Assembly (NCBI GenBank): GCA_019695345.1 | Contig: JAIBAE010000033.1 | Span: forward strand, 1 to 44,567 | Direction of reading: 5' to 3' | DNA length: 44,567 nucleotides | DNA from: Bacteroidota bacterium | GTDB taxonomy: Bacteria; Bacteroidota; Ignavibacteria; Kapaibacteriales; NICIL-2 | Part shown: positions 5,604 to 14,965 of the stretch, one piece after another | Position numbering within the stretch: position 1 is the stretch's first letter | Layout: each line of letters starts with the position of its first letter | Notes under the pieces: generated by a model | Seen by the model: the letters and a program-made list of their open reading frames with translations, nothing else | Databases searched by the model: none | Told to the model about the DNA's origin: nothing | Position numbers and translations under genes: made by a program

Positions 5604-6884
5604 TTATAATGTTTGTACACAATTGCGTAATATCTGCCCAAAGCGATACACATCGGTAAACGAGTTGTATAGTGGCGCCGGAGCCATGCGAATTACATCG
5701 GGGTTGCGCCAGTCTGCAATTACGCCGTGTTCCGATAGATAATCAAAAATCTGTTTGCCGTTGTTGCTTGCAATAGTTGATAACTGTGCCCCGCGTTCGG
5801 TTGGGTTTTGCGGTGTAATAATGTGTAAGCGGTGCGCGGGAAATTCGTTGGCTACTGTGTTGATAACATATTCCAAATATCCCGTTAGCATAATACTCTT
5901 AGCCCGCAGATTCTGTATGCCTGCCTCGCTGTAAATATCAAGCGATGCCTTGTGCAACGCCATCGGGAAAACAGGTGCGTTGCTTAGTTGCCAGCTTTCG
6001 GCAGTTTGTACGGGTGTAAACCATTGCGGCATAGTAAAGCGTACAGATTCATCATTTCCCCACCATCCTGCAAAACGCGGTAGTTCTGTGTTGGTGCAAT
6101 GGCGTTCGTGTACAAATACGCCTGCAACTCCGCCCGGACCCGAATTAAGATACTTATACGAACACCATGCGGCGTAGTCAACATTCCAGTTGTGTAGTTC
6201 TAACGGAACATTACCAATGGCGTGTGCTAAGTCCCAGCCAATATGCGCACCAACGCTGTGTGCGGCATTGGTAATTGCCTGCATATCGTACCATTGCCCA
6301 ACGTAATAATGCACAGCACTTAAATGCACCAAACAAAGCGAGTTGCCAAGTTGCTGTATGGTTTGGATAATATCTTCGGTGCGTAACGTGTTTTCGCCTT
6401 GGCGTGGGTGAAGCTCTACAATACATTCATCGCGGTTCAGTCCGTGAAGTTGTACCTGACTTTCGGCGGCATATCTATCCGATGGAAATTCCTGCCCAAG
6501 TATCAGTATCTTGTTACGGGTGGCAGTTGGGAGGTAGAACGACGTCATCATCAGATGCACGTTTACCGTTAGTGCATTCATGCACACAACCTCGTGCGGA
6601 AATGCGCCAACTAATGTGGCAAGCGGCTTGGCAAATATCTTATGGTACGAGAACCACGGAGTTTTAGCGCGGAAGTGACCTTCTACGCCATGGGTTTTCC
6701 AATCTTCAAACTCTTGTTGTACCGCCGCTTCCGAGCGTTTGGGCAACAACCCAAGTGAGTTCCCGCACAGGTACACAGCATCGCTGCCATTATGTTGTGG
6801 AATGTAAAATTCGTTGCGGAAATGCGCCAACGAATCGGCGGCATCCATAGCGTGTGCAAACTCTTCGGTAAACTGATAATTCAT
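5604..6884 (-). CDS. kynU: Kynureninase
   Basis: A PLP-dependent enzyme that cleaves kynurenine (or 3-hydroxykynurenine) to anthranilate (or 3-hydroxyanthranilate) and alanine in tryptophan degradation or eukaryote-like NAD synthesis. Counting from the ATG at 6884 (426 residues, a usual length), one sees LCGNSLGLLPK near residues 39-49, the PLP-ring Asp in GWDLAHAIGN (D218), and the Schiff-base lysine K244 in SYKYLNSGPGG, followed by AGWWGND. An upstream TTG would add 12 residues but these look non-conserved. No kynA, kynB or nad gene is nearby, so whether this serves catabolism or NAD synthesis is not visible here. A family A repeat separates it from the divergent arginine operon. Confidence 0.95.
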   Translation of the reverse strand: MNYQFTEEFAHAMDAADSLAHFRNEFYIPQHNGSDAVYLCGNSLGLLPKRSEAAVQQEFEDWKTHGVEGHFRAKTPWFSYHKIFAKPLATLVGAFPHEVVCMNALTVNVHLMMTSFYLPTATRNKILILGQEFPSDRYAAESQVQLHGLNRDECIVELHPRQGENTLRTEDIIQTIQQLGNSLCLVHLSAVHYYVGQWYDMQAITNAAHSVGAHIGWDLAHAIGNVPLELHNWNVDYAAWCSYKYLNSGPGGVAGVFVHERHCTNTELPRFAGWWGNDESVRFTMPQWFTPVQTAESWQLSNAPVFPMALHKASLDIYSEAGIQNLRAKSIMLTGYLEYVINTVANEFPAHRLHIITPQNPTERGAQLSTIASNNGKQIFDYLSEHGVIADWRNPDVIRMAPAPLYNSFTDVYRFGQILRNCVQTL

Positions 6885-6960
6885 GATAATCTGGTTCAGG
6901 ATTGTTGAAATAATCCGCAATGTAGTAAAAGATGCGCTTGTGCAGAAACGTTGTTGTATT

Positions 6961-7079: not shown

Positions 7080-7109
7080 TTGCGTGACTTTTGAGATTAT
7101 GTATTTTCG
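7080..7109 (+). promoter_or_regulatory. Candidate promoter of the arginine operon
   Basis: TTGCGT at 7080-7085 and TATTTTCG at 7102-7109 are separated by 16 bases. This fits a sigma70-like -35/-10 pair. It also fits the Bacteroidetes pattern (TTG, about 19 bases, TAnnTTTG) with one mismatch. Transcription would begin near 7115, just before the Arg-rich leader ORF. Prediction by eye only. Confidence 0.4.
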
Positions 7110-7137
7110 CGCCCATAATTATTACAACCATTATTCA

Positions 7138-7254
7138 ATGACACAAGCAATCACATATTTCTGTACCGCTAACCGCAATGCCTTCCGCCGCGAAATGTCG
7201 CGACGACTCAGTATTGTACGACGTACGGTGCGTAGGGAGTGTGTGATGAAGTAA
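7138..7254 (+). CDS. Arginine-rich leader peptide (38 aa), putative attenuator
   Basis: A short ORF too small for ordinary gene callers, beginning MTQAITYFCTANRNAFRRE. Nine of 38 codons are Arg, eight of them as four RR pairs (residues 17-18, 22-23, 28-29, 32-33), with CGC, CGA, CGT and AGG all used. It lies just after the candidate promoter, 30 bases before an intrinsic terminator and upstream of the arginine biosynthesis genes, exactly the arrangement of his/trp/ilv-type leader peptides. Inference: ribosome stalling on Arg codons under arginine starvation would prevent terminator formation. No strong Shine-Dalgarno is visible, and I could not establish a convincing antiterminator pairing by eye. 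Confidence 0.7.
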   Translation: MTQAITYFCTANRNAFRREMSRRLSIVRRTVRRECVMK

Positions 7255-7283
7255 TTGTGTTCAGGTGTTGTACACAAAATTTC

Positions 7284-7323
7284 AAAACCGCTTCCTGCTT
7301 AGTTGCTCGGAGCGGTTTTTTTT
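7284..7323 (+). terminator. Intrinsic terminator in the arginine operon leader (attenuator)
   Basis: AAAACCGCT (7284-7292) pairs with AGCGGTTTT (7311-7319), with CC/GG extending across a one-base bulge, followed by an unbroken T tract to 7323. It lies inside the leader, after the Arg-rich peptide and before all structural genes, so it must be read through for expression. Confidence 0.85.
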
Positions 7324-7356
7324 ATGCTGTATGTTGATGGTGTGGTAGTAATAGAA

Positions 7357-7555: not shown

Positions 7556-8185
7556 ATGAATACAACCACTCATGCACACCATATCACATTTACTATCTAT
7601 AATGCTGGCGAACAGCACTTTGCGTATGCTGAAGAAATTTGCGAGGTAATTGCCGAATCCGCCAAACTGCGCGGCACCGGAATTGCCAAGCGCCATCCTG
7701 ATTATATCCGTTCTAAAATGCGCGAGGGCAAAGCAGTAATTGCCCTTACCCACGATAACCGTTTTGCGGGCTTCTGTTATATAGAAACATGGGAGGACAA
7801 AAAGTATGTTGCAAATTCCGGACTTATTGTAGCACCGGAATTCCGCAAGCAACATCTTGCAAAACGTATTAAGAAAGCCGCGTTCGAGCTATCGCGCACA
7901 AAATTTCCAGAAGCTAAAATTTTTGGTATTACAACAAGTGCAGCTGTGTTAAAAATTAACAGCGATCTTGGATACCGTGCCGCACACTTTACCGAACTCA
8001 CCGCCGACGACGCTTTTTGGAAGGGCTGCGAATCGTGCAACAACTTTGATATTCTTCAGCGTACTGAACGCAAGATGTGCTTGTGTACAGGCATGTTGTT
8101 CGACCCCGCAGAAGAAGCACGTAAAGCAGCAACAAACTTGGTAAGCATAGAGCTACCTACAGAACTTACTTTAGCGGAGGCGTAA
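7556..8185 (+). CDS. GNAT N-acetyltransferase of the arginine operon (putative N-acetylglutamate synthase)
   Basis: A 209-residue single-domain GNAT protein. The core strand SGLIVAPEF is followed by the acyl-CoA pyrophosphate-binding loop RKQHLAKRI (the R/Q-x-x-G/A pattern, somewhat divergent) and a late LGYR motif typical of GNAT motif B. It is the first gene of the cluster and its stop is one base before argG. Bacteroidetes arginine clusters often begin with such a protein in place of classical ArgA or ArgJ, so it probably makes the N-acyl-glutamate that starts the pathway. Whether the acyl group is acetyl or succinyl is not decided by the sequence. ATG 7556 is chosen over TTG 7553 because AAAGGAAA lies at ideal spacing. 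Confidence 0.7.
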   Translation: MNTTTHAHHITFTIYNAGEQHFAYAEEICEVIAESAKLRGTGIAKRHPDYIRSKMREGKAVIALTHDNRFAGFCYIETWEDKKYVANSGLIVAPEFRKQHLAKRIKKAAFELSRTKFPEAKIFGITTSAAVLKINSDLGYRAAHFTELTADDAFWKGCESCNNFDILQRTERKMCLCTGMLFDPAEEARKAATNLVSIELPTELTLAEA

Positions 8186-8186
8186 C

Positions 8187-9398
8187 ATGTCGGTACAAAA
8201 GAAAGTACTGCTTGCCTTTAGTGGCGGGCTGGATACATCGTATTGTGTAAAATATCTAAGCGAAACTTGTGGTATGGAAGTTCACACCGCAATTGTAAAC
8301 ACGGGCGGATTTTCTGCACAAGAACTATCACAAATCGAAGAACGTGCCTACGCACTAGGCGCGGCTACGCACACAACTCTCGATGAAACCAAAGCACTCT
8401 ACAACCAATGCCTGCGCTACCTTGTGTTTGGCAACGTGCTAAAGAACAACACTTATCCGCTTTCGGTAAGTGCAGAGCGTGTGTTTCAAGCACGTGCAAT
8501 TGCACAGCTTGCTAAAACCATGAACGTAGATTGCGTTGCGCACGGAAGCACTGGCGCAGGCAACGACCAAGTTCGTTTTGATGTAGTATTCCACACGCTT
8601 ATCCCCAATGTGGAAATCATCACCCCAATTCGCGATAACAAACTATCGCGCGAAGAAGAAATTGAATTTCTGAATTCATGCGGTGTAGAAGGCGATTGGA
8701 CAAAAGCGTTGTACTCAATTAACCAAGGCATCTGGGGTACAACAATAGGTGGGAAAGAAACCCTAACTTCGCATTTGCCATTACCCGAAAAAGCATATCC
8801 AACGCGCGCAACCGCAACAGAAGAACGCGTTATAACGCTACACTTCGAACGTGGTGAGTTTGTTGGAATCAACGGTGAAATGTTAGCTCACCCAACCGAA
8901 GCAATTCAGGCACTTACAAAACTTGCAGACGAATTTGCAATTGGTCGCGATATGCACATTGGCGATACCATTATTGGTATAAAAGGTCGTGTTGCATTTA
9001 CCGCAGGTGCACCACTACTTATTATTAAAGCGCATCACGCTCTTGAAAAACACACGCTAACAAAGTGGCAACTCAATCTTAAAGATCAACTCGCGCTATG
9101 GTACGGTCAGCTCTTGCACGAAGGACAATTTGCAGAGCCTGCTCTTCGCAGTATCGAGGCATTCTTTGAGCAATCGCAACAAACCGTACATGGCGAAGTA
9201 CATGTTCGTCTTGCACCGTATCGTTTCAGTATCGAAGGCATTTCATCGCCCAACGATTTAATGAATTCCACCTTTGGCAAGTACGGCGAAATGAATAACA
9301 CATGGAGCGGCAAAGATGTCGAGGGCTATTCACGCATTGCGGCTAATCAAGCACTTATTTACCACGCCGTAAACGGAGGCAATCATGATTCGCGTTAG
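8187..9398 (+). CDS. argG: Argininosuccinate synthase
   Basis: Joins citrulline and aspartate with ATP to form argininosuccinate. The 403-residue length fits the family. The N-terminal PP-loop AFSGGLDTS (residues 10-18) binds ATP; AHGSTGAGNDQVRF near residues 118-131 matches the citrulline/aspartate-binding AHGxTGKGNDQVRFE segment with Ala for Lys, and IWG and MNNTWSGKDVEGY follow. The divergence from the canonical sequence fits the form found in Bacteroidetes clusters with ArgF'. The start is separated by one base from the preceding stop, and the 3' end overlaps argC by 14 bases, implying translational coupling. Confidence 0.93.
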   Translation: MSVQKKVLLAFSGGLDTSYCVKYLSETCGMEVHTAIVNTGGFSAQELSQIEERAYALGAATHTTLDETKALYNQCLRYLVFGNVLKNNTYPLSVSAERVFQARAIAQLAKTMNVDCVAHGSTGAGNDQVRFDVVFHTLIPNVEIITPIRDNKLSREEEIEFLNSCGVEGDWTKALYSINQGIWGTTIGGKETLTSHLPLPEKAYPTRATATEERVITLHFERGEFVGINGEMLAHPTEAIQALTKLADEFAIGRDMHIGDTIIGIKGRVAFTAGAPLLIIKAHHALEKHTLTKWQLNLKDQLALWYGQLLHEGQFAEPALRSIEAFFEQSQQTVHGEVHVRLAPYRFSIEGISSPNDLMNSTFGKYGEMNNTWSGKDVEGYSRIAANQALIYHAVNGGNHDSR

Positions 9399-10350
9399 CA
9401 TAATTGGTGCATCGGGCTACACCGGCGGCGAGTTACTACGCATACTACTCAATCATCCACAATGCGAAGTAGTACATTGTTTCAGTTTGCACAATGCCGA
9501 TAAAGCCGTAAGTGCAATACACACCGATCTACTCGGCGACACATCCTTACACTTTACAAATACCGTGTATCGCGATGCCGATGTGTACTTTCTGTGTTTG
9601 GGTCATGGTAAATCGCGAGAGTTTATAGCAGAAAACTCTTGGCTGCTCGATAAACACATCATTGATTTAAGCAACGAGTTCCGTCTCCATAAAGAAGGCA
9701 ACACCTTTGTATATGGTTTGCCCGAGTTACACAAACAACAGATTGCACAATCTAAACACATAGCAAACCCAGGTTGTTTTGCCACAGCAATTCAACTTGC
9801 GTTGTTGCCACTTGCGCAGTCGAAACTTCTTACACAAGATATTCATGTAAGTGCCATCACCGGCTCAACAGGTGCTGGACAATCTCTTAGCGATACCGTA
9901 CATTTCTCATGGAGAGCAAACAACATGCAAGTGTACAAGGCATTTGCGCATCAACACGTTCCGGAAATAGTTCAATCATTGAAACACTCACAACCCGCTT
10001 GGAACAACGCTCTGCGTTTTATTCCATACCGTGGCAACTTCACCCGTGGAATCATCGCATCCTGTTATACAGTATGTGCTTTATCAAACGAGGAAGTAAC
10101 TGAGTTATACTTTTCTTATTACAGCGCACAACCTTTTGTACATGTAGTACAAGAGCAGCCAGACATTAAACAAGTTGTAAACACAAATAAGTGTTTGCTC
10201 CACGTAGAAAAACACGATGATGTAGTTCTCATAACAAGCGTACTCGATAACCTCATAAAAGGTGCATCAGGTCAGGCAGTACAGAACATGAATCTCATGT
10301 TTGGCATACCCGAGCAAACTGGTTTAATACTCAAAGCTTCTGTGTTTTGA
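9385..10350 (+). CDS. argC: N-acetyl-gamma-glutamyl-phosphate reductase
   Basis: Reduces N-acyl-glutamyl phosphate to the semialdehyde using NADPH. The N-terminus IIGASGYTGGELLR (residues 6-19) is the NADP-binding Rossmann loop. The catalytic cysteine lies in ANPGCFATAIQL (near residue 132), and GSTGAGQSLSD and AHQHVPEI follow, the latter holding the conserved His. At 321 residues it is a little shorter than most ArgC proteins. The start overlaps argG by 14 bases. After argC the compact order is broken by the GxxExxY insert. Confidence 0.93.
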   Translation: MIRVSIIGASGYTGGELLRILLNHPQCEVVHCFSLHNADKAVSAIHTDLLGDTSLHFTNTVYRDADVYFLCLGHGKSREFIAENSWLLDKHIIDLSNEFRLHKEGNTFVYGLPELHKQQIAQSKHIANPGCFATAIQLALLPLAQSKLLTQDIHVSAITGSTGAGQSLSDTVHFSWRANNMQVYKAFAHQHVPEIVQSLKHSQPAWNNALRFIPYRGNFTRGIIASCYTVCALSNEEVTELYFSYYSAQPFVHVVQEQPDIKQVVNTNKCLLHVEKHDDVVLITSVLDNLIKGASGQAVQNMNLMFGIPEQTGLILKASVF

Positions 10351-10368
10351 TTGTATTGTAAATGATTA

Positions 10369-10415
10369 GTTTAAACACAAAAGGAACAAAAGAAAACAAA
10401 AGATTCACAAAAGGA
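10369..10415 (+). repeat. Left flank of the GxxExxY insert (inverted-repeat arm)
   Basis: Begins GTTTAAACACAAAAGG and continues as ACAAAAG-like units every ~11 bases. The reverse complement of 10838-10885 downstream of the gene has the same string (GTTTTAAACACAAAAG) and the same periodic CAyAAG pattern, so the gene sits between two imperfect inverted arms of about 45 bp. Confidence 0.65.
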
Positions 10416-10423
10416 AGAGAGTC

Positions 10424-10831
10424 ATGACTCAATATTATATCAACCGACTTGGATACGAGATTGTTGGGGCTGCAATCGAAGTTCATAATTCTTTAGGACC
10501 CGGACTTCTTGAGTCTGTCTATGAGAAGTGCTTAGCACATGATTTGCTTATTCGAGGTTATGATGTTAAACGGCAGATTCCTGTTCCCGGCAACTACAAG
10601 GGGCTTGAGTTTACAACTGAGTTCAGATTAGATCTGATTGTAAATGATGTAATTATTGTTGAGTTAAAAGCTGCAGAGACATGGAATAAGGTTTGGGAAG
10701 CGCAATTGCTTACATATCTTAAACTTATGAATCTACCTAAGGGCTTACTTATTAACTTTTTTGAACCTGTGCTCAAAGATGGAATGAAATCTTTTGTTAC
10801 AGAAGCATACGCAAAACTCCCAAAAGAGTAA
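10424..10831 (+). CDS. GxxExxY family protein (PD-(D/E)xK-like)
   Basis: A 135-residue protein with the defining motif G27-L-L-E30-S-V-Y33 within SLGPGLLESVYE, and a PD-(D/E)xK-like core in RLDLIVNDVIIVELKA (D70, E80, K82). Family members are found scattered in many environmental bacterial genomes; their role is unknown, though the fold suggests nucleic acid cleavage or binding. It lies between argC and argF' in an otherwise overlapping operon and is bounded by inverted-repeat arms, so it looks like an insertion. It is on the operon strand with an upstream GGAAGAGAG for ribosome binding, so it may be expressed with the arginine genes without taking part in the pathway. Confidence 0.85.
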   Translation: MTQYYINRLGYEIVGAAIEVHNSLGPGLLESVYEKCLAHDLLIRGYDVKRQIPVPGNYKGLEFTTEFRLDLIVNDVIIVELKAAETWNKVWEAQLLTYLKLMNLPKGLLINFFEPVLKDGMKSFVTEAYAKLPKE

Positions 10832-10837
10832 CTAATG

Positions 10838-10885
10838 GCTTATGTGTCCCTTATGTGATTCTTATGTCTCTTTTGTGTTTAAAAC
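10838..10885 (-). repeat. Right flank of the GxxExxY insert (inverted-repeat arm)
   Basis: Ends CTTTTGTGTTTAAAAC; on the minus strand it matches the left flank at 10369-10415 with one extra T and scattered substitutions. It finishes 16 bases before the argF' start. Confidence 0.65.
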
Positions 10886-10901
10886 ATAATAAAAAACTAC
10901 C

Positions 10902-11852
10902 ATGAATAAATTCACTTCAATACAAGATGTTCCCAACCTGCAAGAGTTGTTAACAGTGGCACGCGATTGCAAACAACAACCCTTTGCAAACAAACACATC
11001 GGTACAAACAAAACACTCGGGCTGCTATTCTTTAATCCAAGCTTGCGCACACGCATGAGCACACAAAAAGCTGCGTACAATCTCGGCATGGATGTAATTG
11101 TTATGAACGTTGGTAGCGATTCATGGACGCTTGAAACACGTGACGGCGTAATCATGGATGGCTCTGCGACCGAGCACATCAAAGAAGCCGCAGCTGTGAT
11201 GGGAGAGTATTGCGACATCCTTGGTCTGCGCACCTTTGCCGGCTTGGTAGATAAACAACTCGACTACTCCGAAGACGTTCTCGAGAAGTTTATTCGCTAT
11301 AGTGGCAAACCGGTTATATCGCTCGAATCAGCTACACGCCATCCATTGCAATCACTTGCCGATGTATTTACTATAGAGGCACATAAAACTACCACGCGAC
11401 CCAAAGTAGTTTTGACATGGGCACCGCACCCAAAGGCATTGCCACAAGCGGTTCCCAACTCATTTGCCGAGTGGGCAATTGCCATGAACTACAACGTGGT
11501 TATTGCACACCCCGTTGGCTATGAACTCAGTGGGGAGTTCACTCGTGGTGCGAGTATCACACACAATCAAGACGAGGCATTGCACAACGCAGACTTTGTG
11601 TATGCAAAAAACTGGAGCAGCTTCCACAACTACGGAACAATACTCTCACACGATAAAGGGTGGATGATAACAGCAGAGAAAATGTCATGCACCAACAACG
11701 CTAAATTTATGCATTGCCTTCCGGTGCGCCGAAACCAGATAGTATCAGACGCTGTACTCGATTCCCCCAACTCCATCGTCACCGAAGAAGCGGGCAATCG
11801 AGTAGTCTCCGCGCAAGCAGTACTCCGCACCATGATTGAAAGCTTAGCATGA
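10902..11852 (+). CDS. argF': N-acyl-L-ornithine carbamoyltransferase (ArgF' type)
   Basis: Carbamoylates an N-acylated ornithine, giving N-acylcitrulline, instead of acting on free ornithine. The carbamoyl-phosphate loop NPSLRTRMST (residues 45-54), ATRHPLQSLAD, TWAPHPKALPQAVPNSFAEW and HCLPVRRNQIVSD are hallmarks of the acetyl/succinyl-ornithine branch. As I recall the structural work, the residue before the EH pair in the MDG loop sets specificity: Pro90 in the Bacteroides fragilis succinylornithine enzyme and Glu92 in the Xanthomonas acetylornithine enzyme. Here the aligned residue is Thr90 (MDGSATEH), so the acyl group used is uncertain. The stop overlaps the argB start by ATGA. Confidence 0.9.
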   Translation: MNKFTSIQDVPNLQELLTVARDCKQQPFANKHIGTNKTLGLLFFNPSLRTRMSTQKAAYNLGMDVIVMNVGSDSWTLETRDGVIMDGSATEHIKEAAAVMGEYCDILGLRTFAGLVDKQLDYSEDVLEKFIRYSGKPVISLESATRHPLQSLADVFTIEAHKTTTRPKVVLTWAPHPKALPQAVPNSFAEWAIAMNYNVVIAHPVGYELSGEFTRGASITHNQDEALHNADFVYAKNWSSFHNYGTILSHDKGWMITAEKMSCTNNAKFMHCLPVRRNQIVSDAVLDSPNSIVTEEAGNRVVSAQAVLRTMIESLA

Positions 11853-12622
11853 ACATAACCGTTATAAAAATTGGCGGCAATGTTGTGGATGATGCCAATG
11901 CACGTACCGAGTTTTATGCGCAACTTTCTGCAATTCGTAGTGCAGTGATTCTTGTGCATGGTGGCGGCAAAGTGGCTACAGAACTTAGTTCTAAGCTTGG
12001 CATCCCGACAACAATGATTGACGGTAGGCGCGTCACCGATGCTGAAACTCTTCGTGTTGTAACCATGGTGTACGCTGGTCTTATCAACAAGCAGCTTGTT
12101 GCTGAGTTGCAATCGCATGGCATAAACGCGCTTGGAATTACCGGAGCAGATGGCAACATACTTCGCGCCCACAAACGCACGCATGCACAACACGATTACG
12201 GTTTTGTTGGCGATATTGATTCTGTAAACACAGAACTACTTTCACAGTTAGTACAAGCGAATCTTTTACCAGTTATTGCTCCGCTTACGCACGACGGCTC
12301 CGGGCAATTGCTTAACACCAATGCCGACACCATTGCCGCACAGGTCGCATCAGCACTTGCACAAACGTTTACCGTGGATGTGATATACTGTTTTGAGAAA
12401 CGTGGTGTGTTACGCAATGTAGAAGATGAATCAACGCTTATACCGTCGCTAACTCTCACAGAATATTCTGCACTTAAAGCCAATGGCGTTGTTGCACAAG
12501 GAATGATTCCAAAACTTGATAATGCCTTTGATGCAATAGCACGTGGTGTGCATAGCGTGCGAATAACAAAGTACACACATCTTGATGGCGGCACCTTGCT
12601 ACATAAAGGAGAATCCGCATGA
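11849..12622 (+). CDS. argB: N-acetylglutamate kinase
   Basis: Phosphorylates the gamma-carboxylate of N-acyl-glutamate. The product has 257 residues and the amino-acid-kinase fold: IKIGGNVVDD (residues 6-15), VILVHGGGK (glycine-rich phosphate loop near 33-41), and the GLINKQLV and LNTNADTIAAQVA segments typical of ArgB. The short form without an N-terminal regulatory helix is normally not the hexameric arginine-inhibited type. ATGA overlaps couple it to argF' before and the deacetylase after. Confidence 0.92.
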   Translation: MNITVIKIGGNVVDDANARTEFYAQLSAIRSAVILVHGGGKVATELSSKLGIPTTMIDGRRVTDAETLRVVTMVYAGLINKQLVAELQSHGINALGITGADGNILRAHKRTHAQHDYGFVGDIDSVNTELLSQLVQANLLPVIAPLTHDGSGQLLNTNADTIAAQVASALAQTFTVDVIYCFEKRGVLRNVEDESTLIPSLTLTEYSALKANGVVAQGMIPKLDNAFDAIARGVHSVRITKYTHLDGGTLLHKGESA

Positions 12623-13692
12623 CACCTGTTGAATTACTTCAATCAATGATTGCAACCGAATCGTTCTCCCGCAACGAGGGAGCTGTTGCCGAGATTGTGC
12701 AACAGTATCTTGAAAGCAATGGCGTTGAGTGTAATCGTTTGCTTTATAATGTGTGGTGTGTAAATAAATATTATGATTCATCGAAGCCCACGTTATTACT
12801 CAACTCACACATAGATACAGTTAAGCCAAACAACGATTGGACGCGCAATCCATTTGAAGCAACTATCGAGGATGGGATTCTCTATGGATTGGGTAGCAAT
12901 GATGCGGGTGGATGTGTTGTATCCTTGGTGCAAACGTTTATCAACTTCAACAACCGAAGTGATCTTGCGTTTAACCTTGTTCTTGCTGTTACAGCAGAAG
13001 AAGAAATAAGCGGTGAGAACGGCATTGTTGCTGTGGTTCCAGCGCTGCCACACATTGATTGCGCAATCGTTGGCGAACCAACCGAAATGCAACTTGCTAT
13101 TGCCGAAAAAGGATTGATGGTGTTGCGTTGCACGGCGCAAGGTAAGTCGGGTCATGCTGCGCGGAACGAAGGAGTGAATGCAATTGATATTGCGATGCAG
13201 GATATTCAGTGGTTTCATTCGTACAAGTTTGATAGAACAAGCGATTACCTTGGCGATGTAAAAATGACGGTAACAATCATAAACGCAGGAACGCAACACA
13301 ACGTTGTTCCTGATAGATGCGATTTTACTGTTGATGTTCGCACAACCGATGCTTATACTAACGAGGAAACACTTGCTATCATCACAAACAACATACGAAG
13401 CACGGTGGCGGATGTGTCGCGGCGTTTAGAGCCCTCTCGTATAGAACGCTCGCACCCGCTTGCGTTAGCAGCAACTACCATTGGTATGAATCCATACGGC
13501 TCGCCAACACTATCAGACCAAGCATTGTTGCGGGTTCCGAGTGTAAAGATTGGTCCGGGTTCGTCGTCACGTTCGCATACAGCCAACGAGTTTATCTACG
13601 TTCACGAAATTGAGCATGGCATTGCGCGCTACTGCGAGTTGTTAGAATGTTTTAATACCATTTTGAAAGAAAAGAATGAAACTTTGGGATAA
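12619..13692 (+). CDS. argE: M20 deacylase, probable N-acetylornithine/N-acetylcitrulline deacetylase
   Basis: A 357-residue M20 zinc hydrolase. The metal ligand and catalytic signatures are LNSHIDTVKP (His and Asp), GLGSNDAGG (bridging Asp), TAEEEISGENG (general base Glu) and GEPTEM. The dimerisation domain contains GKSGHAAR with the conserved His. With an ArgF' upstream, the logical substrate is N-acylcitrulline rather than N-acetylornithine, yielding citrulline for ArgG; this is inferred from context. DapE-type activity on succinyl-diaminopimelate cannot be excluded from motifs alone. The start overlaps argB by four bases and the end overlaps argH by 17. Confidence 0.8.
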   Translation: MTPVELLQSMIATESFSRNEGAVAEIVQQYLESNGVECNRLLYNVWCVNKYYDSSKPTLLLNSHIDTVKPNNDWTRNPFEATIEDGILYGLGSNDAGGCVVSLVQTFINFNNRSDLAFNLVLAVTAEEEISGENGIVAVVPALPHIDCAIVGEPTEMQLAIAEKGLMVLRCTAQGKSGHAARNEGVNAIDIAMQDIQWFHSYKFDRTSDYLGDVKMTVTIINAGTQHNVVPDRCDFTVDVRTTDAYTNEETLAIITNNIRSTVADVSRRLEPSRIERSHPLALAATTIGMNPYGSPTLSDQALLRVPSVKIGPGSSSRSHTANEFIYVHEIEHGIARYCELLECFNTILKEKNETLG

Positions 13693-14965
13693 GGGAATTT
13701 CTACCAACGCGTTGATTGAGGATTTTACCGTTGGGCGCGACCGCGAGTTTGATATGCTGCTTGCTAAACATGATGTGCGTGGTTCTATTGCACATGCTAC
13801 CATGCTTGCCGAGGTTGGTATTCTTACTACCGATGAAGGCAATGCGTTGGTGCAGGAGTTGCACACCATTGAACGCGAAATAGAGAATGGTGAGTTTGCT
13901 ATTGCACCCGAGATGGAAGATGTGCACTCGCAAGTGGAGTACCTGCTAACGCTGCGTCTTGGCGAGATTGGTAAAAAAATTCACACTGGGCGTTCGCGTA
14001 ACGATCAAGTTCTTGTGGATATGAAGCTGTTCATGCGCGAAGAACTTTGTAATGTACGCGATTCTGTTTCTACGTTGTTTGCTACGTTGCTTACTTTGGC
14101 AGAGCAGCACAAAGAACAGTTGCTTCCGGGCTACACACATTTTCAGATTGCAATGCCAAGCTCGTTTGGGTTGTGGTTTAGCGCGTATGCCGAGTCACTT
14201 ACTGACGATATGGAATTGATTGTTGCGGCGCATAATGTGGTGAATAAAAATCCGCTTGGGTCTGCTGCGGGCTATGGTTCTTCCTTTCCGCTTAACAGAA
14301 CGCGCACAACGGAACTTCTTGGTTTTAGTGCAATGAATGTTAGCTCGGTGTATGCACAAATGACGCGAGGGAAATCCGAACGGGTTGTTGCTACGGCACT
14401 TGCATCTGTTGCGGGCACTCTTAGTAAACTTGCGTACGATGTTTGTTTATACACCTCGCAGAACTTAGCTTTTGTGCGCCTTCCGGCGGAGTTCACAACG
14501 GGAAGTAGTATTATGCCACACAAACAAAACCCCGACATTTTTGAACTTATTCGCGCAAAGTGTAACCGCTTGCAAGCGTTGCCTAATGATATACTTCTTG
14601 TAACCAACAACCTGCCTTCGGGCTATCATCGCGACTTTCAGATTCTTAAAGAGCTTGTATTTCCTGCTTTTACCGAGTTGCAGCAATGTTTGCAATTGGC
14701 TACGCTTGTTCTTCCGCAGTTGCAGGTTACGCCCAACATCATGAGCAACAATTTGTACGCCTATTGCTTTAGTGTTGATGCCGTTAATCAGCTTGTTCAG
14801 CAAAGTGTTTCCTTCCGCGATGCGTATAAACAAATTGGCGAGAGTATTCAGCGTGGCGATTTCACTGTGCCCGAACACCTTACCCACACGCACGAAGGAA
14901 GCATTGGCAACTTGCGTTTGGATTTGATTCAACAACAAATGCAAAAAGTACTTTCATCTATGTAG
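13676..14965 (+). CDS. argH: Argininosuccinate lyase
   Basis: Splits argininosuccinate to arginine and fumarate, the last step of the pathway. The fumarase/aspartase superfamily signature GSSIMPHKQNPD is present near residues 278-289, together with HTGRSRNDQV (near 102-111) and LLPGYTHFQIAMP. The length of 429 is slightly below the common 450-460. It overlaps the deacetylase by 17 bases, the largest overlap in the operon, and is the last gene: a family A repeat begins four bases after the stop. Confidence 0.94.
   Translation: MKLWDKGISTNALIEDFTVGRDREFDMLLAKHDVRGSIAHATMLAEVGILTTDEGNALVQELHTIEREIENGEFAIAPEMEDVHSQVEYLLTLRLGEIGKKIHTGRSRNDQVLVDMKLFMREELCNVRDSVSTLFATLLTLAEQHKEQLLPGYTHFQIAMPSSFGLWFSAYAESLTDDMELIVAAHNVVNKNPLGSAAGYGSSFPLNRTRTTELLGFSAMNVSSVYAQMTRGKSERVVATALASVAGTLSKLAYDVCLYTSQNLAFVRLPAEFTTGSSIMPHKQNPDIFELIRAKCNRLQALPNDILLVTNNLPSGYHRDFQILKELVFPAFTELQQCLQLATLVLPQLQVTPNIMSNNLYAYCFSVDAVNQLVQQSVSFRDAYKQIGESIQRGDFTVPEHLTHTHEGSIGNLRLDLIQQQMQKVLSSM

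Follow-up and report, generated by a model that had tools for sequence, protein, structure and literature searches.

Textbook control of arginine biosynthesis in bacteria is repression by ArgR and, to our knowledge, arginine is absent from the usual list of pathways controlled by attenuation. In fungi an upstream peptide, the arginine attenuator peptide, controls an arginine-biosynthesis gene. Leader peptides that sense arginine have also been described in bacteria. In Salmonella, two consecutive Arg codons in the 34-codon leader orf34 of speF sense arginine by ribosome pausing (PMC6386406), and in Staphylococcus aureus rare Arg codons in the rbfL leader peptide sense arginine supply (PMC13009471). 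The main text of a transcriptome study of Flavobacterium psychrophilum presents strong clues of leader-peptide attenuation before amino-acid biosynthesis operons (PMC9723704), and a survey of Actinobacteria found no RNA element before arginine operons. In the part of the literature covered, no description was found of attenuation by an Arg-codon leader at a bacterial arginine biosynthesis operon, and the novelty of such a case is unproven.

Genomic setting of the leader

The window, a stretch of 44,567 nucleotides (contig C27), belongs to the 4.56-Mb assembly, in 163 contigs, of a Bacteroidota genome from a Kapabacteria-type order (G000). Relatives used for comparison were MAGs labelled Candidatus Kapaibacterium, Ignavibacteria or Chlorobiota. 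A divergent kynureninase-like gene (5604-6920, minus strand) is separated by some 450 nt of leader from an arginine operon (7556-14965, plus strand) with the gene order argA-like GNAT, argG, argC, GxxExxY, argF', argB, argE-like and argH ( Table 1 ). The arginine biosynthesis genes expected downstream of the leader are borne out by NCBIfam and Pfam matches: argC, argB, argH and the N-acetylornithine carbamoyltransferase gene pass NCBIfam cut-offs, and profile searches give family matches for argG, the argE-like gene and the GNAT acyltransferase as well. In most members of the order that have an argA candidate, this gene adjoins argG. The GxxExxY (PDDEXK_3) gene at 10424-10831 lies inside the operon, between argC and argF'. 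The leader precedes a biosynthetic operon for the same amino acid that its clustered codons specify.

Control by ArgR supposes that the repressor is encoded in the genome. Its DNA-binding domain (PF01316) was detected in one of 61 genomes and not in that of the window, and its C-terminal domain (PF02863) was found in none of the seven genomes searched; positive controls worked in both cases. HisG, anthranilate synthase component I (Anth_synt_I_N) and IlvD (ILVD) were not found in five genomes of the family (G000, G001, G002, G004 and G005), so that arginine biosynthesis is perhaps one of few such pathways here, and no his, trp or ilv attenuators could be obtained for comparison. Although they make arginine, these five organisms may be auxotrophs for several other amino acids.

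Table 1. Features of the leader and the arginine operon in the window.
Feature	Coordinates	Strand	Details
Likely promoter, Bacteroidetes type	7080..7109	+	TTG (7080-7082), 19-nt spacer, TATTTTCG (7102-7109)
Leader peptide ORF, 38 codons	7138..7254	+	ATG 7138 to TAA 7254; MTQAITYFCTANRNAFRREMSRRLSIVRRTVRRECVMK
Region 1 (protector), leader codons 4-11	7149..7168	+	Pairs with 7226-7248 in the minimum-energy fold
Region 2	7226..7248	+	Alternative partner of region 1 or, through 7232-7244, of the terminator 5' arm
Small hairpin directly 3' of the stop codon	7255..7277	+	Folds inside the antiterminator
Intrinsic terminator	7284..7323	+	Stem AAAACCGCTTC / GGAGCGGTTTT, then eight T
Region 3, terminator 5' arm	7287..7298	+	Antiterminator partner of 7232-7244
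Second short ORF, 30 codons	7452..7544	+	Five Arg codons; 11 nt separate its end from argA; MDTISRIIARRRVVRYSEIIISNIIITSYY
argA candidate, GNAT-family acyltransferase	7556..8185	+	First gene of the operon; Pfam PF00583
argG, argC, GxxExxY gene, argF' (N-acetylornithine carbamoyltransferase), argB, argE-like, argH	8187..14965	+	

Promoter and leader ORF

The likely promoter resembles those of the Bacteroidetes class. Its TTG and TATTTTCG elements are conserved, with unchanged 19-nt spacing, in G002, the genome with the closest leader, and are similar in most leaders of genus g2 of the same family. The one correction to the original observation concerns its promoter-like pair: the sigma-70-like TTGAGA-17-CATAAT (7091-7119) was rejected, as its frequency is about that expected by chance and its -10 element (CATAAT, 7114-7119) is not conserved in G002.

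The 38-codon ORF is present as first described, with nine Arg codons clustered as R13, R17-18, R22-23, R28-29 and R32-33, that is, four RR pairs and R13. A longer reading of 56 codons from a GTG was discarded, and the ATG at 7138 preferred, because the GTG lies upstream of the likely promoter. Upstream of the operon in the window, Arg density exceeds that of shuffles of the same region (p = 0.010). In several GC-rich relatives Arg richness by itself is not significant (p 0.08-0.16, with values up to 0.17 against shuffles) and it was dropped as proof on its own; the case rests instead on codon-level selection and on structure.

Between the window and G002, whose leader peptide is MTQTITYFCTANRNAFRREMSRRLSMMRPMVGSMYRCVYQ, codons 1-25 differ by eight synonymous changes and one that is non-synonymous. 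Each of the five Arg codons in this segment is kept in G002, four of them with a synonymous change. If one random change in four were synonymous, eight among nine would, by our own arithmetic, have a probability near 1e-4. At the level of sequence comparison, this pattern demonstrates selection on the peptide over codons 1-25, with retention of the Arg codons, and the leader ORF is probably translated.

Terminator and alternative pairings

An intrinsic terminator with a tract of eight T had been noted between the leader ORF and the first gene of the operon, and folding confirms it: the terminator has an 11-bp outer stem and a stability of -18.0 kcal/mol (z -4.05), equalled by none of 200 shuffles. 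It had been missed by a pattern scan that permits short loops only.

Folding of 7122-7330 yields a long stem between regions 1 and 2 followed by the terminator (z -3.5, 0/200 shuffles). The region 1:2 duplex has an energy of -24.5 kcal/mol, and 56 of 2000 shuffles are as good (7 of 2000 for its G002 equivalent). When folding starts at 7205, so that region 1 is treated as unavailable, 7232-7244 pairs with 7287-7298 instead. This is the antiterminator that could not be recognised by eye, the acknowledged weak point of the original prediction; the segment that contains it (7226-7298) reaches -26.9 kcal/mol (z -4.78), with no shuffle out of 200 as good. With a ribosome placed at R28 the antiterminator is stabilised by 18.5 kcal/mol, a value reached by one of 300 shuffles. 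The three alternative pairings, as modelled, are those of a classical attenuator. The sequence of the small hairpin after the stop codon is not kept in G002.

Conservation in the family

Promoter, Arg-rich ORF and terminator occur in the same order in all seven same-family genomes that have the operon with argA; the eighth, G003, lacks both argA and argG. Comparison of related genomes, suggested at the outset as a check, thus finds both the Arg-rich ORF and the terminator wherever the operon occurs in this family. The G002 terminator lies at the same place (-19.3 kcal/mol). Antiterminator stabilisation across the seven leaders is 15-23 kcal/mol, as compared with 6-12 in shuffles, and is reached by 1, 0, 0, 0, 5, 0 and 0 of 300 shuffles, respectively. 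The end of the G002 leader has diverged, with 18 of 42 bases identical to the window, and still pairs with the conserved region 1; taken as an isolated duplex, its antiterminator is weak (241 of 1000 shuffles as good).

Compensatory changes, also anticipated, are present in genus g2, where a C-G pair of the 1:2 stem is replaced by U-A in G007 and a G-C pair of the terminator by A-U in G005, yet covariation is only modest, since five sequences are available. Leaders of this genus (for example MTSLLRRRSLRRRPCQQWHG...) carry RRR-x-x-RR(R) clusters that end shortly before the predicted switch. Their antiterminator is formed by TGGCAYRGG, which encodes W-H and pairs with the loop and arm of the terminator. 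In three leaders it disappears no more than a few codons past the last clustered Arg; the loss is more gradual in G006 and G001. Every clustered Arg in these leaders (L014, L025, L028, L029 and L041) is encoded by CGA, and in the folds these codons face a downstream TTGTCG; CGA is a minority codon, making up 8% of the Arg codons in twelve genes of the window.

Ribosome position and proposed mechanism

The consequences of ribosome position were modelled by masking the RNA through to 13 nt beyond the first position of the codon in the A site and computing pairing in the remainder; the model is static and co-transcriptional kinetics are inferred. In the window, before the 3' arm of the terminator exists, the predicted probability that the 5' arm is captured stays at 1.00 as long as the ribosome stalls no further than R29; it falls to 0.95 at T30, to 0.54 at V31 and to 0.01 once the stop codon is reached, and the switch comes directly behind the Arg clusters. 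At equilibrium with the full terminator, termination is 0.99 in free RNA, as expected if the 1:2 stem protects termination when translation does not occur, and from codon 30 onward; it drops almost to 0 at R13 and R28 and takes intermediate values across R17-R23 (0.12-0.87), those for R18-R23 being 0.35-0.87. A mutually exclusive antiterminator set by ribosome position is predicted in all seven leaders. In most relatives the terminator prevails at equilibrium even with a stalled ribosome, so that the switch there would need co-transcriptional kinetics.

These observations make it highly probable that the leader is a ribosome-mediated transcription attenuator that senses charged tRNA-Arg ahead of the arginine operon. 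The anatomy of the leader, its conservation, selection at codon level and alternative pairings beyond chance are shown by the sequence analysis. From these, together with the ribosome-position model and the failure to find ArgR, which lend support to the control by stalling on Arg codons originally proposed, we infer ribosome stalling, a kinetic choice of structure and a response to arginine. At low arginine, the ribosome would stall on Arg codons between 13 and 29, and this ribosome, or one behind it, would occupy region 1. Region 2 could then pair with the terminator's 5' arm while the 3' arm is still to be transcribed, and transcription would continue into the arg operon. When arginine is ample, a ribosome at the stop codon would cover region 2, allowing the terminator to fold and transcription to end. 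If the leader is not translated, regions 1 and 2 would pair and the terminator would form too. The attenuator would take over the role played elsewhere by ArgR.

Arg-rich leaders in other families and the wider Bacteroidota

In family f2, leaders with RRR-x-x-LRE and a GCTGCGRGA/TCYCGCAGC stem, with no T-tract, occur at 12 of 21 argA loci, and one base pair of the stem is changed on both sides. Of 123 genomes, 12 contain a single copy of the leader DNA motif, at sites that coincide with argA loci; in several f2 genomes that lack it, argA lies close behind a purE-like gene. In four f2 leaders (L003, L036, L037 and L042) the stop codon is followed by a further conserved structure (GAAGCCCCCTCGA...TCGACCGCGACTTC), which lacks a T-tract and whose unpaired bases are unusually conserved. 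Arg-rich leaders are also present in families f3 and f8 and are mostly absent from f7 and f9; none was found upstream of the detached argG of family f7.

Among other Bacteroidota and neighbours, 26 of 71 argA loci have an ATG-started ORF with at least four Arg in ten codons; the reverse strand gives 7 and shuffles give 2.9 (maximum 7). Many Bacteroidota Arg leaders finish in RRRP* or RxRA*, positioned on a stop-codon hairpin of the form GCCC-loop-GGGC. In Flavobacteriia argA leaders (L090, L100, L117 and L132) the Arg-rich stretch runs up to a hairpin (GCCC-loop-GGGT) close to the stop codon, behind which comes another hairpin whose loop, AGGTGWGTCC, is conserved; Rfam gave no match. The chances seem about even that Arg-codon leaders are a widespread, perhaps ancestral, control of arginine biosynthesis in Bacteroidota, with at least three RNA architectures. 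With equal uncertainty, these would be the terminator type of the window, the f2 type, and a type with RR(R)P* or R-x-RA* endings above a short GCC-GGC hairpin where the stop codon lies. Such leaders may act as a substitute for ArgR in lineages that lack it.

Alternative explanations

Control could be exerted on argA translation or mRNA stability, through the second short ORF or RNA folding, with the terminator as an extra layer. A 30-codon ORF (MNAQYVLIVVLRSRPCAECIVSTIINSSYY) occupies the matching place in G002, and T-tract terminators are lacking in family f2 and in many Bacteroidota Arg leaders, both of which fit such control; conservation suggests translational coupling or reinitiation at argA. 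Within the window's family, however, the conservation of a strong terminator and an antiterminator, together with the presence of only two Arg codons in the second ORF of G002 where the window has five, leaves this explanation unlikely. Both second ORFs end SYY and have CAAGCTATTATTAA in common. Somewhat less probable still is an arginine-dependent arrest peptide resembling that of fungi, responding to free arginine and the nascent chain rather than to tRNA charging. Conservation of codons 1-25 between the window and G002 extends beyond the Arg codons (TYFCTANRNAFRREMSRRLS), as an arrest peptide would require, but region 1 overlaps these codons, so that RNA pairing adds constraint; moreover, the leaders of genus g2 and family f2 have Arg clusters and not this peptide, and the anatomy of a biosynthetic operon favours stalling at low arginine.

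That the terminator serves an unregulated small transcript or ends upstream transcription, with the Arg-rich ORF an accident of base composition, is very improbable. Arg-rich ORFs are not rare by chance in GC-rich relatives, but here the Arg codons are kept through synonymous-only change, the order of promoter, ORF and terminator persists in seven genomes, the antiterminators lie far beyond shuffles, and Arg enrichment recurs at argA loci of other Bacteroidota (26 of 71, compared with 2.9 in shuffles). Hardly any weight can be given to a T-box or arginine-binding riboswitch, to which a structured leader ahead of an amino-acid operon might otherwise point: region 2 falls inside the conserved coding frame, and Rfam covariance models gave a single match in the window, to a tRNA, and none in the leaders of relatives, so that an Rfam identity for the leader was rejected.

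Implications and comparison with known systems

If the attenuator reading is true, a conserved Arg attenuator in a lineage where no ArgR can be detected would extend the attenuation list by one amino acid and would illustrate how a repressor that is lost or absent can be replaced in cis. For uncultured Bacteroidota it would also provide a simple means of reporting arginine starvation, and the Arg-rich leaders before argA across the phylum make the question testable in culturable species.

The mechanism itself is of a known kind, that of trp/his-type attenuation. The trp, his, leu, ilv, thr and phe attenuators likewise have a leader ORF rich in codons for the product, with protector, antiterminator and terminator pairings, before a biosynthetic operon; the window differs from them in that arginine would be the amino acid sensed and in that the host lineage appears to be without ArgR. 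The fungal arginine attenuator peptide is, in contrast, eukaryotic and translational, and arrest depends on high arginine and the nascent chain. The candidates of F. psychrophilum are also from Bacteroidota, and the main text of that study names no arginine case (PMC9723704). The speF orf34 leader resembles that of the window in using an Arg-codon ORF as arginine sensor, but its peptide is unrelated, the gene controlled encodes a catabolic ornithine decarboxylase, and control involves Rho, mRNA decay and RBS access, with no intrinsic terminator (PMC6386406). In rbfL, stalling blocks the RBS of a biofilm regulator, so that control is translational, opposite in sign and not linked to a biosynthetic operon, yet there, as proposed for the window, the Arg codons of a leader peptide report arginine supply (PMC13009471).
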